Shown here: positions 7,156 through 15,763 of the stretch, one piece after another
Layout of the letters: every line of letters begins with the position of its first letter
Numbering within the stretch: position 1 is the first letter of the stretch
Source of the DNA: Streptomyces sp. NBC_00513
GTDB lineage: Bacteria; Actinomycetota; Actinomycetes; Streptomycetales; Streptomycetaceae
Assembly (NCBI RefSeq): GCF_041431415.1
Contig: NZ_CP107845.1
Coordinates: forward strand, 6,758,001-6,822,000
Length of the DNA stretch: 64,000 nucleotides
Reading direction: 5' to 3'
Translations under genes and position numbers: made by a program
Notes under the pieces: model-generated
Databases searched by the model: none
What the model saw: only the letters and a program-made list of their open reading frames with translations
What the model was told of the DNA's origin: nothing

Positions 7156-7560
7156 TCAGCCCTCCGGCTGCTCCTGCTGCGCCTGCTTCTGCGCGTTCTT
7201 CTCCTTGATGCGGACCGTCTCCTTGCGGACCTCGGCCTGCGTGGCACGCTCCTTCTGCAGCCACTCGGGGGCCTCGTTCTTCAGCGCCTCGATCTGCTCC
7301 GTGGTGAGGGCCTCGGTGACCCCACCCCGGGCGAGACCGGCGATGGAGACGCCCAGCTTGGCCGCGACCACCGGCCGGGGGTGCGGGCCGTTGCGGCGCA
7401 GCTCCTGGAGCCACTCGGGCGGATCGGTCTGCAGGGCACCCAACTCGCTGCGCGAAACGACACCCTCCTGGAACTCGGCGGGGGTGGCTTCGAGGTACAC
7501 ACCCAGCTTCTTCGCCGCGGTCGCGGGCTTCATGGTCTGGGCGGTCTTGTGCGACGTCAT
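7156..7560 (-). CDS. DUF5997 family protein
   Basis: 134 residues, highly charged C-terminus. The core KPATAAKKLGVYLEATPAEFQ, DPPEWLQELRRNGPHPRPVVAAKLGVSIAGLARGG, TEQIEALKNEAPEWLQKERATQAEVRKE matches DUF5997 as I remember it. Two similar segments (LGVYLEATP...DPPEWLQELRR and LGVSIAGLA...EAPEWLQKER) suggest an internal duplication. The ATG at 7560 faces the GTG of the LysR-type ligand-binding gene across 58 bp. This divergent pairing appears conserved in Streptomyces, so a functional link is plausible. The function is unknown. Confidence 0.86.
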   Translation of the reverse strand: MTSHKTAQTMKPATAAKKLGVYLEATPAEFQEGVVSRSELGALQTDPPEWLQELRRNGPHPRPVVAAKLGVSIAGLARGGVTEALTTEQIEALKNEAPEWLQKERATQAEVRKETVRIKEKNAQKQAQQEQPEG

Positions 7561-7606
7561 GGAGTCAAGAGTATCGAGCGTGTGCACCACCTCTGACCAC
7601 GGCCGG

Positions 7607-7612
7607 TAACCT
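7607..7612 (+). promoter_or_regulatory. Putative -10 box of a leaderless transcript
   Basis: TAACCT ends 6 nt before the GTG at 7619 and there is no Shine-Dalgarno, the arrangement expected when transcription starts at or next to the start codon. Confidence 0.45.
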
Positions 7613-7618
7613 GGCCCG

Positions 7619-8419
7619 GTGACAGGCTCGGAAGTACCTCCCTCGTTCCGGCTCGCCTACGTTCCGGGGGTGACACCCACCAAGTGGGTGCGGATCTGGA
7701 ACGAACGCCTGCCCGGCATCCCGCTGACCCTCGTCGCGGTCGCCCCCGCCGCCGCCCCCGACGCGCTGCGCGCCGGCGAGGCGGACGCCGGATTCGTCCG
7801 GCTGCCGATCGACCGCACGGACCTCAGCGCCATCCCGCTCTACACCGAGACCACGGTCGTCGTGATCCCCAAGGACCACCTGGTGGCGAGCGCCGAGGAG
7901 GTGTCCACCGGGGACCTGGCCGACGAGATCGTGCTGCACCCCCTCGACGACACCCTCGACTGGGACACCCTGCCGGGTCGGCCCGCGATCGAGCGACCCG
8001 CGACGACGGAGGACGCCGTCGAGCTGGTGGCCGCGGGCATCGGCGTACTGGTCGTCCCGCAGTCCCTCGCCCGCCTGTACCACCGCAAGGACCTCACCTA
8101 CCGGCCGCTGACGGGCGCCCCCGAGTCGCGGGTGGCGCTCTCCTGGCCCGAGGAGGAGACCACCGACCTGGTGGAGGAGTTCATCGGCATCGTCCGCGGA
8201 CGGACCGTGAACAGCTCCCGGGGCCGCTCCCTGGCAGCCCCCGCGCCCGCGCCGGCGCAGCCGAAGGGCAAGCGCCCGGCGCCCGGCGGAGGCGCACGGG
8301 GGGCCGGCGGCGGCAAGACCGGCGGCAAGAACCCGCGCGCTGGCGGCGCGCCCAAGGGCGGCAAGGGCGGCGCCGCGGGCAAGGGCGGCGGCAAGCGCGG
8401 CAAGCCGCGCGGCCGCTAG
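7619..8419 (+). CDS. LysR-type substrate-binding domain protein lacking the HTH
   Basis: 266 residues. It begins directly with the periplasmic-binding-like effector fold of LysR regulators ([76 protein letters not shown]). The usual 60-residue N-terminal HTH is absent, and upstream lies the divergent DUF5997 gene, not a lost HTH. Residues about 208-266 form a low-complexity Gly/Lys/Ala tail ([18 protein letters not shown]) with high positive charge that could contact nucleic acid or ribosomes. It may act as a ligand-sensing partner of DUF5997, which is inference from position only. GTG 7619 lacks a Shine-Dalgarno. Confidence 0.85.
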
Positions 8420-8872: not shown

Positions 8873-8895
8873 CCGGCCCCGTCAGGCGGGGCCGG
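8873..8895 (-). terminator. Hairpin at the end of the corrinoid-binding gene
   Basis: CCGGCCCCG, 5-nt loop, CGGGGCCGG. The loop contains the stop codon of the minus-strand gene, so it may end transcription of both converging units. Confidence 0.45.
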
Positions 8896-9802
8896 GCAGC
8901 CGGAAGGCCTCCGCCTCCGTCACCGGGTCCCCGACCCGGACTCCGTGCAGCACCCGCGCCAGGACCTCCGCGCCCCGCACCACCCGCGGGCCCGGCCGGT
9001 TGAAGTACGCGGGCCCGTCCAGCACCCACACCTCGCCGGACCGCACCGCCGGCAGCTCCGACCAGCCCGGCAGCGCGGTGAGCGCCCCGCGCTCGCGCAG
9101 CGTGCGCCGCGGGCTGAACCCGCACGGCAGCAGGAGCAGGACGTCCGGTCGGGCGGCCCGGACCGTGTCCCAGTCCATCGGCCGGGTGTGCTCGCCCGGG
9201 GCCGCGATCAACGGTTCCCCGCCCGCCGCGGTGATCTGCTCCGGCACCCAGTGCCCGGCGGGCCAGAGCGGATCCAGCCATTCGATGGCCACCACCCGGG
9301 GCCGGGGACGGCCCGCCACGGCGGCGCGTACCGCCTCCAGCCGGGCCCGCGCATGGGCCCGGCGGGCCCGTCCGACCTCGGGGACGCCCAGCAGCTCACC
9401 CACACGGACCAGACAGTCCAGTACGTCGTCGAGGGTGCGCGGCTCCAGGCTGAGCACCCTCGGCCCTCCGTCGAGCACGCGTACCGCCCGGCTCACGCCC
9501 GCGTAGGACACCGCGCACACGTCGCACAGGTCCTGGGTGAGGACCACCTCGGGCGCGAGCGCTCCCAGCGCCTCCACGTCCAGGCCGTAGAGCGAGGAGC
9601 CGCTGTGCGCCGCGCCCCCGACCGCCTCGGAGATCTCCCGACTGGACAGCTCGTCGGACGAGAACGCGGCGGAGGTCACCACCGGCACGCCGGCCACCGC
9701 CGCCGGCCAGTCGCACTCGTGCGTGCGGCCCACCAGATCGGCGAGCAGTCCGAGTTCGGCCACGATGTCGGTGGCGGCGGGCAGCAGGGAAACGATGCGC
9801 AT
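8882..9802 (-). CDS. Cobalamin/metal-binding protein (BtuF-like helical-backbone receptor)
   Basis: 306 residues of the class III solute-binding (BtuF/FhuD) fold: [42 protein letters not shown], the first lobe ending in [20 protein letters not shown], then a C-terminal lobe with [30 protein letters not shown] and [19 protein letters not shown]. The [15 protein letters not shown] and LCDVCAV pattern is typical of proteins annotated cobalamin-binding. There is no signal peptide or lipobox, so it is not an ordinary ABC receptor and may act inside the cell. No btuC or btuD gene adjoins it. A cobalamin riboswitch starts 124 bp upstream but on the opposite strand, so it does not control this gene. 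Confidence 0.85.
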
Positions 9803-9925
9803 CCCCCGAGCGTAGGCCGTCTCCGGGGGAACCTCGCCACGTCGGTTTCCGGCCACTCACGGTGGAGCGGCGCTCGCGCGACGCGCCCGGGACGACGGAC
9901 GGGGGTGGACTTACTAGGACGTCCA

Positions 9926-10098
9926 ACTATATGTTCCTGGGCAAGCCCGCGGTGCAGGGAAGTCGGTGTGAATCCGACGCGGTCCCGCCACTGTGACCGA
10001 GGAGTGTGCTCTTCCAGCAGGACAGGCCACTGACGGGGAAACCCGTTGGGAAGGCCGGAGAGCGCGCGTTGATCCGGGAGTCAGGATACCGGCCGCGG
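9926..10098 (+). promoter_or_regulatory. Cobalamin (AdoCbl) riboswitch
   Basis: Conserved elements in order: GGGAAGTCGGTGTGAATCC at about 9957-9974, the CCGCCACTGTGA core at about 9985-9996, GGCCACTGACGGGGAAACC further on, GGGAAGGCCGGAG, and the B12 box AGTCAGGATACCGGCC at 10079-10094 (consensus AGYCMGGAGACCKGCC). The arms flanking these can pair into the expected multi-helix core. The strand is plus, so the first downstream unit is a 25-codon ORF and then the mmsA operon, not the divergent corrinoid-binding gene. These elements usually reduce expression when cobalamin is plentiful. The outer limits are approximate. Confidence 0.93.
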
Positions 10099-10136
10099 GG
10101 TGTTCCGTGTTGTCCACGAGGATGGAGCAGACACGC

Positions 10137-10214
10137 ATGACACCGGTACGTGACCACGGCCCAGGTGATCCGGCGGAGTTCCCGAAGTACGCGGCCCTGT
10201 CCGCGCGTTCGTGA
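10137..10214 (+). CDS. 25-residue ORF behind the cobalamin riboswitch
   Basis: The first start codon after the riboswitch opens a 25-codon frame (MTPVRDHGPGDPAEFPKYAA...) with GGAG 9 nt upstream. I do not recognise the product: it lacks the membrane helix and His-rich tail of CbtB, the small cobalt-transport protein often found in this position. It could be a leader peptide, a genuine microprotein, or the stump of a lost cobalamin-related gene. In-frame starts further upstream lie inside the riboswitch. Confidence 0.35.
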   Translation: MTPVRDHGPGDPAEFPKYAALSARS

Positions 10215-10337
10215 CTCACCGAAGGCATCCACGCCTTCACTGTCCCGCGACCCGCCCCGCGCCGCGCACCCCGATCGGTGCCGCGCCGCCGGCTCGTCGC
10301 GCCCTCCTCGGACCTCACCTGACGAGAGCAGGCTTCG

Positions 10338-11837
<1,500 letters not shown>

Positions 11838-11842
11838 CCGTC

Positions 11843-12988
11843 ATGACCACGACCCTGCTCAGCAAGGACCAACTCGCCCTGGCCGAGGTCACCCTCGACT
11901 TCGCACAGGAGCAACTCGCCCCGCACGCCATCGCCTGGGACCAGGACAAGCACTTCCCCGTCGACGTGCTCCGCCGCGCCGCCGACCTCGGCCTCGCGGG
12001 GATCTACGTACGCGAGGAGTCCGGTGGCTCCGGGCTCACCCGCGCCGACGGGGTGCTCGTCCTGGAAGTGCTGGCCACCGGCTGCCCCTCGATCGCCGGC
12101 TACCTCTCCATCCACAACATGGTCGCCTGGATGCTCGACACGTACGGGGACCCCCACCAGCGCGAGCGCTGGCTGCCCGGGCTCTGCTCCGCCCGCACCC
12201 TCGGCAGCTACTGCCTCACCGAGCCCGGCGCCGGCTCGGACGCCGCCGCGCTGCGCACCCGCGCCGAACGCGACGGCGACCACTACGTGTTGACCGGCGT
12301 GAAGCAGTTCATCTCCGGCGCCGGAGCCTCCGACGTGTACGTGGTCCTGGCCCGCACCGGATCCGACGGGCCGCGCGGGATCTCCGCCTTCATCGTGGAA
12401 CGCGCCGACGCCGGGCTCTCCTTCGGCCCCGACGAGCGCAAGATGGGCTGGAACGCCCAACCCACCCGCCAGGTCGTCCTCGACGGGGTGCGGATCCCCG
12501 CCACGCGACGGCTCGGCTCGGAGGGCGACGGGTTCCGCATGGCCATGACGGCCCTCAACGGTGGCCGGCTCGGCATCGCCGCCTGTTCGCTCGGCGGCGC
12601 CCAGAGCGCACTGGACCGCAGCCTCGCCCACCTGGCCGACCGCGAGGCGTTCGGAGCGCGCCTGCTCGACGCGCAGGCGCTCCAGTTCCGCCTCGCCGAC
12701 ATGGCCACGGAACTCACCGCCGCCCGCGCCCTGGTCCGTACCGCCGCGCAGGCCCTGGACAACGGCGACCCGCAGGCCGCGCAGCTCTGCGCCATGGCCA
12801 AGCGCTTCGCCACCGACACGGGTTTCACGGTGGCCGACCGGGCGCTCCAACTACACGGCGGATACGGCTACTTGAGCGAGTACGGCATCGAGAAGATCGT
12901 CCGAGACCTCCGTGTGCACCAGATCCTGGAAGGGACCAACGAGATCATGCGCGTCATCGTCGCCCGCGGCCTGACGGAGAACCTGTGA
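11843..12988 (+). CDS. Acyl-CoA dehydrogenase, probably isobutyryl-CoA dehydrogenase
   Basis: 381 residues, full acyl-CoA dehydrogenase fold with the FAD/substrate motifs YCLTEPGAGSDAAALRTRAE and FISGAGASDVYVV, an LNGGRLGIAACSLGGAQ segment and the catalytic base E363 in ILEGTNEIMR. Position in the valine operon, immediately after mmsA and before the 3-hydroxyisobutyryl-CoA hydrolase gene, points to isobutyryl-CoA as substrate, giving methacrylyl-CoA. The ATG at 11843 is 5 nt after the mmsA stop. An overlapping in-frame GTG at 11834 is possible. A cytoplasmic flavoprotein passing electrons to ETF. Confidence 0.93.
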   Translation: MTTTLLSKDQLALAEVTLDFAQEQLAPHAIAWDQDKHFPVDVLRRAADLGLAGIYVREESGGSGLTRADGVLVLEVLATGCPSIAGYLSIHNMVAWMLDTYGDPHQRERWLPGLCSARTLGSYCLTEPGAGSDAAALRTRAERDGDHYVLTGVKQFISGAGASDVYVVLARTGSDGPRGISAFIVERADAGLSFGPDERKMGWNAQPTRQVVLDGVRIPATRRLGSEGDGFRMAMTALNGGRLGIAACSLGGAQSALDRSLAHLADREAFGARLLDAQALQFRLADMATELTAARALVRTAAQALDNGDPQAAQLCAMAKRFATDTGFTVADRALQLHGGYGYLSEYGIEKIVRDLRVHQILEGTNEIMRVIVARGLTENL

Positions 12989-14061
12989 TGACCGACGCAG
13001 CGGACGTCCTGGTCCACGTCGAGGGCCGCACGGGCCGCCTGACCCTCAACCGCCCGAAGGCCCTGAACGCGCTCAGTCACCCCATGGTGCTGCGCGTCGA
13101 GGAGGCCCTGACCGCCTGGCGCGGCGATCCCGCCGTGGAGGCGGTGGTCGTCTCCGGCGCCGGCGAGCGTGGGCTGTGTGCGGGCGGTGACATCCGGGCC
13201 ATCCACGACGATGCCAAGGCCGGCGGTACGGCCTCGGCGGACTTCTGGCGGGACGAGTACCGGTTGAACGCGCTCATCGCCCGCTATCCCAAGCCGTACG
13301 TGGCGTTGATGGACGGCATCGTGATGGGTGGCGGAGTCGGGATCTCGGCCCACGGCAACGTCCGCATCGTCACCGAACGCTCCCGCGTGGCGATGCCCGA
13401 GACCGGCATCGGCTTCGTCCCGGACGTCGGCGGCACCTACCTCCTGGCGCTCGCGCCCGGCGAACTGGGCACCCACCTGGCCCTGACGGGCGCACCGGTG
13501 GGCGCGGCCGACGCGCTGCTGTGCGGGCTCGCGGACCACTTCGTCCCGGCCGATCGGCTCGACCGACTGTCGGCGGACCTCGGACGCGCGCCCGTACACG
13601 AGGTCCTGGCCCGCCACGTCGGTCAGGCCCCTCCCGGGCTGTTGGCCGCGAGGCGCGGGTGGATCGACCACTGCTACGCCGCCGACACCGTCGAGGAGAT
13701 CGTCGAACGGCTCCTCACGAGCGGTGAACCCGAGGCCAAGGACGCGGCCGAGACCATCCTGACCAAGTCGCCCACCGCGCTCAAGGTCACCCTTTCCGCC
13801 CTCCGCCGCGCACGCGAAACGGGGCCGCTGGAAAGGGTCTTGGAACAGGAGTACAGGATCTCCTGCACGGCCCTGCGCTCTCCCGACCTGGTCGAGGGGA
13901 TCCGCGCCCAGGTCATCGACAAGGACCGCGCCCCCCGCTGGTCGCCCGCCACCCTCGAAGAGGTCACGGAATCCGACGTGGCCCGCTACTTCGCCCCCCT
14001 CGACGACGGGCGCGAACTGCGCCTCGCCGTCACCGACTCTCCTCAGGAGGTGCCCTGGTGA
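12988..14061 (+). CDS. 3-hydroxyisobutyryl-CoA hydrolase (crotonase family)
   Basis: 357 residues, longer than a simple enoyl-CoA hydratase and matching HIBYL-CoA hydrolases: [33 protein letters not shown] (oxyanion hole), [42 protein letters not shown] (catalytic E and D region), and a long C-terminal domain with [16 protein letters not shown] and the [30 protein letters not shown] segments. It releases free 3-hydroxyisobutyrate, which avoids accumulation of toxic methacrylyl-CoA. The start ATG overlaps the previous stop (TGATG). GTG 12985 is an alternative. Confidence 0.93.
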
Positions 14062-14972
14062 CCAGCGTCATCGCCTTCATCGGGCTGGGCCACATGGGCG
14101 GCCCGATGGCCGCCAACCTCGCCGCGACCGGCCGGCGCGTGATCGGTTTCGACCTCGTCCCCGCCGCGCTCGCCTCCGCCGCGGCGGCCGGCGTGGAGGC
14201 CGCGGACTCCGCCGCCCTGGCCGTCGCCGAGGCGGACGTGGTGATCACCATGCTGCCGGCCGGTCGCCACGTCCTGGCCCTCTACGGGGAGCAGGGGCTG
14301 CTCGCAGCGGCCAAGCCCGGCACCCTGTTCATCGACTGCTCCACCATCGACGTCGAGGACGCCGTCCGCGCCCACACCGCCGCCGGCGAGGCGGGCCACC
14401 GGGCGCTCGACGCGCCCGTCTCCGGCGGGGTGACGGGCGCCGAGGCCGCGACCCTGACCTTCATGGTCGGCGGCGCGGAGACCGAGTTCGCCGAGGCGAC
14501 CCCACTGTTGGACGCCATGGGCGGCAAGATCGTGCACTGCGGGGGAGCGGGCGCCGGACAGGCGGCGAAGATCTGCAACAACATGATCCTGGGCATCTCG
14601 ATGATCGCGGTCAGCGAGGCCTTCGTCCTGGGCGAGAGCCTGGGCCTGTCCCACCAGGCGCTGTACGACGTGGCCTCCACCGCGTCCGGCCAGTGCTGGG
14701 CCCTCACCACCAACTGCCCGGTACCCGGCCCGGTTCCGGCCAGTCCCGCCAACCGCGACTACCGCCCCGGCTTCGCCGCCCCGCTCATGGCGAAGGACCT
14801 GGGGCTCGCCGTCAACGCCCTGCGCGCGGGCGGCATCGACGCCGGACTCGGCGGGCGCGCCGCCGAAATGTACGCCGCGTTCGCCGAAGGGGAAGGGGCC
14901 ACACAGGACTTCTCCGGAATCGTCCACGCCCTGCGCGCCACCACCACGGACCGGAACGGACCCGCCTCGTGA
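14058..14972 (+). CDS. mmsB: 3-hydroxyisobutyrate dehydrogenase
   Basis: 304 residues. N-terminal Rossmann domain with [26 protein letters not shown], substrate-loop motif [22 protein letters not shown], catalytic lysine region [23 protein letters not shown] and all-helical C-terminal domain ([17 protein letters not shown]). It oxidises 3-hydroxyisobutyrate to methylmalonate semialdehyde, the substrate of MmsA. The GTG start overlaps the upstream stop by GTGA, implying translational coupling within the operon. Confidence 0.95.
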
Positions 14973-15763
14973 CCGACCACGTGACCGACACCGCCCACGA
15001 AACGATCCTCGTCGAGCGCACGGGGCGCACCGCGCTGCTCACCCTCAACCGCCCCGAGGCGCTCAACGCCCTCAACCTCACGGTCATGAACGAGGTCGTG
15101 GCCGCCACCGAGGCCCTCGACCGGGACCCCGACATCGGCTGCATCGTCCTCACCGGTTCGACGAAGGCCTTCGCGGCCGGCGCGGACATCAAGGAGATGC
15201 AGCCGCAGGGGTACATGGACATGTACCTCAGTGACTGGTTCACCGCCTGGGACCGGCTCGGCGACCTCCGCACGCCGACCGTCGCCGCCGTCTCCGGGTA
15301 CGCCCTCGGCGGCGGCTGCGAGCTGGCGATGCTCTGCGACATCCTGCTCGCCTCCGACACCGCCGTCTTCGGGCAGCCGGAGATCAAACTCGGCGTCATC
15401 CCCGGCATCGGCGGATCCCAGCGACTGACCCGAGCCGTCGGCAAGGCCAAGGCGATGGAGCTCTGCCTGACCGGCCGGACCATGGACGCCGTGGAGGCGG
15501 AGCGGGCCGGACTGGTCTCCCGCGTCGTCCCGGCCGCCGACCTCCTCACCGAGGCCCTCGCCGTCGCCGCGGCGGTGGCGGGAATGTCCGCGCCCGTCGC
15601 CATGATGGCGAAGGAGGCCGTGAACCGGGCCTTCGAGACCACCTTGGCCGAAGGCGTCCGCTTCGAACGGCGGCTGTTCCACGCGGTGTTCGCGACGGCC
15701 GATCAGAAGGAGGGCATGAGCGCCTTCGTGGACAAGCGCGCGGCCGGGTTCACCCACCGCTGA
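14969..15763 (+). CDS. Enoyl-CoA hydratase
   Basis: 264 residues, crotonase fold: [26 protein letters not shown] (first oxyanion segment), [20 protein letters not shown], and [37 protein letters not shown] with both catalytic glutamates (in GGGCELA and QPEIKLG). This is the pattern of active short-chain enoyl-CoA hydratases such as EchA8/PaaF. In this operon it would hydrate methacrylyl-CoA to 3-hydroxyisobutyryl-CoA. GTG at 14969 overlaps the mmsB stop by four bases. Last gene of the operon, followed by a hairpin. Confidence 0.93.

Follow-up and report, generated by a model that had tools for sequence, protein, structure and literature searches.

The cobalamin riboswitches of nrdAB and metE are found before genes whose products can stand in for a B12-dependent enzyme without requiring B12. 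When nrdAB is preceded by such a riboswitch, it is repressed by B12. Similarly, passages of two reports describe how B12 shuts off the B12-independent alternative encoded by metE (PMC9600662, PMC4428469). In Mycobacterium tuberculosis, the B12 riboswitch of ppe2 is described, in part of one study, as having a hairpin that spans the region around the start of uPPE2, a short uORF that is translated and located 5′ of the main gene; uORF and gene overlap (AUGA), and their coupling relies mainly on termination–reinitiation (PMC11260477). Outside bacteria, excerpts of a study on Caenorhabditis elegans present a propionate shunt (acdh-1, ech-6, hach-1, hphd-1, and alh-8) that is used at low vitamin B12 (PMC10167481).

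Here, we describe a cobalamin riboswitch of Streptomyces sp. NBC_00513, located in a 64-kb window (the whole stretch of DNA analyzed, 64,000 nucleotides). We propose that this riboswitch probably makes the downstream mmsA operon a B12-independent bypass of the AdoCbl-dependent isobutyryl-CoA mutase, with AdoCbl switching the operon off, on the pattern of metE and metH. In the literature, for which coverage of subscription papers is incomplete, we found neither a cobalamin riboswitch before a valine/isobutyryl-CoA operon nor the letters ACTAGGACGTCC.

The Cobalamin Riboswitch

A preliminary description of this DNA had claimed a complete AdoCbl riboswitch, and a scan with the Rfam cobalamin model bears this out. 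The aptamer (positions 9933..10111, plus strand) matches the RF00174 covariance model over its full length (1–189) with 93.2 bits, compared to a gathering score of 31.5 bits (E 7.3e-22), and it is the sole Rfam match above gathering score within the window. The Streptomyces sp. NBC_00513 genome contains 11 RF00174 matches, eight of which are above the cut-off. The idea that the leader is a general Streptomyces B12 leader was ruled out, as the motif of the small ORF that follows the aptamer (the uORF) was found at none of the other ten matches (seven above the cut-off), with nine mismatches allowed. Two back-to-back cobalamin riboswitch matches on opposite strands were also observed, at G000:C1:6619657-6619787 (minus) and 6619865-6620003 (plus) (L009 and L008), one above the cut-off and the other slightly below it.

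The corrinoid-binding gene beside the riboswitch does point the opposite way, as had been stated: a gene for a periplasmic-binding-type protein (PF01497, 52.9 bits) occupies positions 8882-9805 on the minus strand. Control of this divergent gene by the riboswitch was ruled out because the aptamer points the other way and because a match to the gene adjoins the leader at just 6 of 46 loci, window counted.

The Leader ORF and the Spacer

The uORF consists of 25 codons plus TGA (MTPVRDHGPGDPAEFPKYAALSARS; 10137..10214, plus strand). Its ATG is kept at 45 of 46 loci, and the encoded peptide starts with MAPV in 41 of 45 uORFs (L111 excluded), while the length ranges from 14 to 30 codons, with one uORF of 100 codons (L131, where the distance to mmsA is also odd). 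In codons 2–13 of 33 distinct sequences (without L111, L116, and L140), pN/pS is 0.49 in frame versus 1.33 and 1.09 in the other frames; values as low were obtained in 1 of 300 column shuffles, a count that is not a probability since the sequences are related. This substitution pattern supports a translated leader ORF, the N-terminal end of which appears conserved under weak purifying selection. Because its C-terminal part and its length vary, the small ORF looks like a leader ORF rather than a cobalamin protein. The earlier suggestion of a real small cobalamin-related product is thus upheld for the conserved N-terminal frame and not for the link to cobalamin.

Located 3′ of the aptamer, a P13-like hairpin with the loop CGAGGA (10106..10135, plus strand) encloses the Shine–Dalgarno region of the uORF (GAGGATGGAG, 10118..10127, plus strand), and the presence of a ribosome-binding site in this position is that of a putative expression platform. 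An alignment was made of 39 leaders (all 46 loci minus L110, L111, L116, L131, L132, L141, and L151). In it, the Shine–Dalgarno region has no variable column, and the ten base pairs of the hairpin are each standard in 38 or 39 of the 39 sequences. No covariation was detected in the hairpin across the 39 leaders, the sequence of which hardly varies. A second hairpin covers the same Shine–Dalgarno region and competes with the first. In addition, the consensus fold of the alignment is not that of the ligand-bound aptamer, as, for most of the 39 sequences, it pairs a strand of the latter with the start of the uORF, and the 413-nt leader folds no more stably than shuffled sequences (z −0.52). The sequence alone therefore does not reveal the direction of the switch. 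Two other structures were considered and set aside: the pairing between aptamer and uORF start as the switch itself, which is broken in a few sequences and was given no weight either way, and a kissing contact of the loop CGAGGA with the aptamer, which amounts to about three Watson–Crick pairs by eye and was not used.

The mmsA start, at 10338, is found 123 nt past the uORF stop. Across the loci, this spacer measures 83–174 nt (median 126, n = 42; L110, L111, L116, and L131 were excluded from the spacer counts). C exceeds G in 42/42 spacers (mean C 0.45, G 0.29), with a mean skew that 7% of mmsA coding windows of equal length reach. This composition fits Rho-dependent coupling, and the C-rich spacer (10215..10337, plus strand) might be a Rho-entry region. 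Right before the mmsA start, the consensus of 42 leaders contains a conserved short hairpin (CCTGACGAGAGCAGG, 10318..10332, plus strand).

The mmsA Operon

Behind the leader, five tightly packed genes follow on the plus strand. The first, mmsA (10338..11837), encodes a CoA-acylating methylmalonate-semialdehyde dehydrogenase (TIGR01722, 637.7 bits, cut-off 448.5). It is followed by genes for an ACAD8-type acyl-CoA dehydrogenase, a putative isobutyryl-CoA dehydrogenase (11843..12988), a 3-hydroxyisobutyryl-CoA hydrolase (HIBCH, 12988..14061; NF004127, 461.2 bits, cut-off 274; PF16113, 421.8), a 3-hydroxyisobutyrate dehydrogenase (HIBADH, mmsB, 14058..14972; TIGR01692, 377.9 bits, cut-off 291.6), and an enoyl-CoA hydratase (14969..15763, start at 14969 or 14981; NF004517, 435.6 bits, cut-off 396). 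Among solved structures, the acyl-CoA dehydrogenase is closest to human ACAD8 (1rx0, 459.6 bits; runner-up 299.1), and its best NCBIfam match is acryloyl-CoA reductase, far under the cut-off (347.6 vs 640). The activities of the C. elegans shunt genes correspond to the five of the operon. That no recognizable cobalamin gene lies downstream, as had been pointed out, is literally true, but the conserved target is the downstream operon itself.

In Streptomyces albus, the text of one report mentions five consecutively numbered genes leading from isobutyryl-CoA to methylmalonate semialdehyde that are upregulated with valine, as is the isobutyryl-CoA mutase (log2 5.2; PMC8176718). From this description, XNRR2_0150–0154 are likely the counterpart of the mmsA operon. 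A MmsA paralogue with 55% identity in the Streptomyces sp. NBC_00513 genome looks like the enzyme of the inositol pathway rather than part of a second valine operon, because it adjoins iolD (TIGR04377, 858.7 bits, cut-off 715). Directly 3′ of the operon, the window contains a 2OG-Fe(II) oxygenase gene (PF13532, 15789-16568, plus strand), for which the same search gave no match in the other loci among the 46.

Association of the Leader with the Operon

A search for a 33-base leader motif with up to three mismatches gave hits in 44 of 392 Streptomyces genomes. Among 296 genomes drawn from the whole class, the five that contained the motif were Streptomyces, versus 0 of 268 genomes from other genera, the pattern being strict enough that diverged forms could escape. 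The 45 leader loci (these 44 plus that of G638) all have an RF00174 match above the cut-off, the weakest of which (47.2 bits, G173, L072) is a compact form. This locus (L072/L193) is a natural variant with an aptamer of 118 nt. Given these frequencies (44/392 genomes, RF00174 at 45/45 loci), the arrangement of leader and operon is far beyond chance.

Gene order was examined at 46 loci, i.e., the 45 RF00174 loci and that of G010. A full mmsA stands behind the leader at 43 of the 45 Rfam-scanned loci, a conservation that supports the earlier option of mmsA being truly under B12 control. With G010 included, full mmsA is present at 44 of 46 loci, and at 42 of these 44 the genes for MmsA, the ACAD8-type dehydrogenase, HIBCH, HIBADH, and the enoyl-CoA hydratase occur in this order (the 42 include L124, with a hydratase match to no more than 29% of the query). 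The two exceptions are L125, without an enoyl-CoA hydratase match in the stretch, and L129, which stops at a contig end.

The same association is seen from the side of the enzymes. In a draw of 150 genomes, MmsA with at least 85% identity was found in 19, namely 18 leader-bearing genomes and G010, which has a degenerate leader; the draw contained 20 leader-bearing genomes, two of which (G012 and G126) do not have the operon. Similarly, the operon dehydrogenase is present with at least 77% identity in 12 of 61 genomes, exactly the operon-bearing ones, and the remaining matches listed in these 61 genomes (E up to 1e-90) are 43–47% identical. In the genomes sampled, leader and intact operon occur together.

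Several genomes show decayed or divergent states. In G126 (L110), the aptamer and uORF remain with none of the operon genes; in G012 (L111), there is only an mmsA fragment, and the uORF start is now ACG. G010 (L116) keeps the operon and the uORF behind a degenerate leader, the aptamer of which gives no RF00174 match. Two genomes fall outside the rule: G022, with a 75–76% identical MmsA, the other four genes not nearby and no riboswitch match, and G149 (L112), with a truncated mmsA and no riboswitch match in the stretch. The option that a target gene was lost is not borne out for Streptomyces sp. NBC_00513 and was rejected, as the leader travels with the operon across genomes; such a loss is seen only in G126 and G012.

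An Operator Shared with Isobutyryl-CoA Mutase

Directly 5′ of the riboswitch lies a putative promoter/operator (GGACTTACTAGGACGTCCAACTATAT, 9907..9932, plus strand), the 22-base core of which is found upstream of the leader at 46/46 loci (up to four mismatches). When up to three mismatches are allowed, the 20-mer GGACTTACTAGGACGTCCAA recurs once in the genome, 5′ of icmA. This second site is a palindrome (TTTACTAGGACGTCCTAGTAAA) and lies about 30 bp upstream of the gene for a 566-residue AdoCbl-type mutase large subunit; icmA is thus present in the same genome as the operon, with an operator that has the same core. Neither of the two sites (up to three mismatches) is found at methylmalonyl-CoA mutase genes.

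More generally, the exact 14-mer operator core TTACTAGGACGTCC was found in 92 of 101 Streptomyces genomes, whereas a reversed control pattern gave one hit overall. Among 30 core-site loci that were fetched, the site precedes icmA in 24, mmsA in 3, an IcmF-like gene in 2, and an operon scar in 1, and the second operator sites of nine operon-bearing genomes precede icmA in 9/9 cases. The two IcmF-like genes match the IcmF family with 728.9 and 722.3 bits (partial sequences); they encode fused mutases in L183 (G003), where an acyl-CoA dehydrogenase gene is divergent, and L168 (G022). The scar, in L175 (G007), is that of a deletion: the riboswitch and mmsA are missing, as is most of the ACAD gene, the remaining end of which is joined to the mmsA-type promoter and followed by HIBCH. 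Upstream of icmA and on the same strand, L161 carries a MarR-type regulator gene (PF01047, 50.3 bits; 7231-7758, plus strand), and similar ORFs are found beside icmA in L162, L169, L170, and L191. The MarR-type protein is a candidate binder of the shared operator.

Among solved structures, the icmA product is closest to 2-hydroxyisobutyryl-CoA mutase (479.4 bits), followed by methylmalonyl-CoA mutase (429.5 bits). In methylmalonyl-CoA mutase, a Tyr and an Arg bind the methylmalonyl carboxylate. The icmA product has Phe80 and Gln198 in their positions, which we take to be marks of isobutyryl-CoA mutase. A separate methylmalonyl-CoA mutase pair is encoded in the genome (large subunit 927.6 bits; small subunit 607.7 bits, just below the cut-off of 617.25), and the genome gave no PrpD match. 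Both the operator partner and the type of the dehydrogenase point to isobutyryl-CoA as the substrate of the operon.

Neighboring B12 Genes and Possible Origin

Other genes connected with B12 are found near the leader. Within about 10 kb, metE is present at 16 of 46 loci, always on the opposite strand, and nrdA at 1 of 46 (the stretches differ in length). The metE copy of L146 encodes a B12-independent methionine synthase (TIGR01371, 1034.4 bits). The mmsA riboswitch adjoins a divergent one at three loci, that of metE in G147 and G158 and that of nrdAB in G233. In Kribbella antibiotica, a 106-bit cobalamin riboswitch (L207, 6674-6886, minus strand) precedes a metE-like gene that is divergent from the mmsA operon, and this operon has no riboswitch on its own strand. 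It is possible that this arrangement pictures the state before the gain of the riboswitch.

The valine operons of Rhodococcus, Nocardia, Kribbella, and others have the same gene order (mmsA–ACAD–HIBCH–HIBADH–ECH). However, in five outgroup loci scanned with Rfam, no riboswitch was found on the mmsA strand, and a B12-box pattern, which also missed the compact riboswitch of L193, had no match up to 1.2 kb upstream of mmsA in 75 non-Streptomyces loci. An operator-like site is located 42–127 nt before mmsA in 10 of these 75 outgroup loci (L210, L218, L227, L234, L241, L244, L249, L250, L254, and L267), whereas chance alone would give about 0.3 in 80 loci. The genomes with such sites, e.g., TTAGTAGGAAGTCC, TTACTAGGATGTCC, and TTACTAGGATATCC, belong to Mycobacterium and to relatives of Arthrobacter, and this suggests that the mmsA operon has long been under an actinobacterial regulator. 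Because these sites are so close to mmsA, the riboswitch seems to have been inserted between the old promoter and mmsA. In the likely history, the valine operon was long controlled by the operator, and the riboswitch and leader ORF were added later, in Streptomyces.

Proposed Mechanism and Alternatives

In the mechanism that we propose, transcription would start at the promoter with the operator common to icmA, so that both routes are induced together, presumably in response to valine/isobutyryl-CoA breakdown. When AdoCbl is present, it would bind the aptamer, and the 3′ hairpin would hide the Shine–Dalgarno region of the leader ORF, which would remain untranslated; as a result, mmsA expression would fall. 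Across the 123-nt untranslated C-rich gap, this effect would probably involve lost translation and Rho-dependent termination. Isobutyryl-CoA would then be converted to butyryl-CoA by the mutase. When AdoCbl is scarce, the leader ORF would be translated and the operon expressed, and isobutyryl-CoA would be degraded via methacrylyl-CoA, 3-hydroxyisobutyryl-CoA, 3-hydroxyisobutyrate, and methylmalonate semialdehyde to propionyl-CoA. We infer the OFF direction from known cobalamin riboswitches, from the neighboring genes and from metabolic logic.

The preliminary description had considered that repression of mmsA by cobalamin would be backwards. This presumes that the relevant enzyme is methylmalonyl-CoA mutase, whereas the operator and the ACAD8-type dehydrogenase indicate isobutyryl-CoA mutase. 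At this point, one step upstream, repression by AdoCbl would make sense, and the apparently backwards regulation would be explained. A first point against the bypass is that its product, propionyl-CoA, still needs the B12-dependent methylmalonyl-CoA mutase to enter the TCA cycle, and it could pile up without B12, since this mutase is present but PrpD gave no match. Other points also weigh against the bypass, namely the unremarkable stability of the leader, the absence of covariation in P13, the pairing of the aptamer strand with the uORF start, which in this predicted fold could argue for the other switching direction, and the exceptions G010 (operon kept without an RF00174 match) and G126 (aptamer and uORF kept without the operon).

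A wider role of the same enzymes has also been considered. In a dual-use pathway, a fall in AdoCbl would release five enzymes that oxidize isobutyryl-CoA and then convert propionyl-CoA to acetyl-CoA, as an RNA-gated counterpart of the worm shunt that acts via a translated leader ORF; we regard this extension as doubtful.

It is unlikely that the operon is instead a bacterial B12-independent propionate shunt, shut by the riboswitch when methylmalonyl-CoA mutase can work. This was our first favorite: the same five activities could lead from propionyl-CoA via acrylyl-CoA, 3-hydroxypropionyl-CoA, 3-hydroxypropionate, and malonate semialdehyde to acetyl-CoA, all five being those of the C. elegans shunt, and alh-8, the worm counterpart of MmsA, is annotated for both semialdehydes in the part of the study cited (PMC10167481). 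In addition, the lack of a PrpD match means that no methylcitrate route was found in the genome, and the best NCBIfam match of the dehydrogenase, albeit at 347.6 against a cut-off of 640, is acryloyl-CoA reductase. However, the solved structure closest to the dehydrogenase is that of isobutyryl-CoA dehydrogenase ACAD8, and the operator is found at the isobutyryl-CoA mutase gene, not at the methylmalonyl-CoA mutase genes; these two results demoted the propionate route to a rival.

Considerably less probable is a riboswitch that controls the leader ORF only, or is a relic, with mmsA transcribed from its own B12-insensitive promoter in the spacer. The 83–174 nt that separate the uORF stop from mmsA in 42 loci offer room for a promoter, and G010 keeps its operon despite a degenerate leader without an RF00174 match. 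Against this, leader and operon co-occur in nearly all genomes sampled, the operator-like sites of the ten outgroup loci stand 42–127 nt before mmsA, and 0 of 44 spacers contain an operator-like site (up to three mismatches).

About as improbable is an ON switch, in which AdoCbl represses only the leader ORF, whose translation holds mmsA down, so that valine would be oxidized in the presence of B12, when the cell can deal with propionyl-CoA: this would fit the earlier worry over propionyl-CoA, the alternative pairing of uORF start and aptamer in the consensus fold, and the uORF of the M. tuberculosis metE B12 riboswitch, which suppresses MetE according to the passages cited (PMC11260477), but ppe2 expression in the same account needs uORF translation (PMC11260477), the sole genome with a lost uORF start (ACG, L111) has a decayed mmsA too, and the metE and nrdAB genes next to the leader in three loci have their own cobalamin riboswitches and are of a kind that is B12-repressed in known cases.

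Comparison with Known Systems

The bypass of isobutyryl-CoA mutase resembles the metE and nrdAB systems in that the riboswitch would precede a B12-independent substitute for an enzyme that needs B12, and a riboswitch-preceded nrdAB is found beside the leader in L121. However, the alternative is an isozyme in those systems, whereas here it is a five-enzyme pathway that, by homology, removes the same substrate, isobutyryl-CoA; moreover, a short leader ORF stands between the switch and the pathway genes. If our proposal is correct, a whole pathway bypassing an AdoCbl-dependent carbon-skeleton mutase would be a third kind of target beside metE and nrdAB. B12 status would then be tied to the pools of branched-chain acyl-CoA, a source of Streptomyces polyketide building blocks, and added cobalt or B12 may alter the building blocks that are available.

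The likeness to ppe2 of M. tuberculosis concerns the leader: a conserved uORF, apparently coding, has its Shine–Dalgarno region in the putative switch hairpin, in the same way as the ppe2 hairpin is described to cover the start region of uPPE2 (PMC11260477). The targets are unrelated, and the stop–start overlap described for ppe2 is replaced here by a gap of 83–174 nt in 42 loci, which makes a coupling other than termination–reinitiation likely. The leader ORF offers a clear opportunity to study, in bacteria other than mycobacteria, riboswitches whose first target is a short ORF.

Finally, the C. elegans propionate shunt and the mmsA operon have five corresponding activities, and the use of the former at low B12, as described in the excerpts cited (PMC10167481), parallels the role that we propose for the latter. 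The two differ in that the worm shunt is an animal pathway under transcriptional control with propionyl-CoA as its substrate, whereas the Streptomyces dehydrogenase is of the ACAD8 type.
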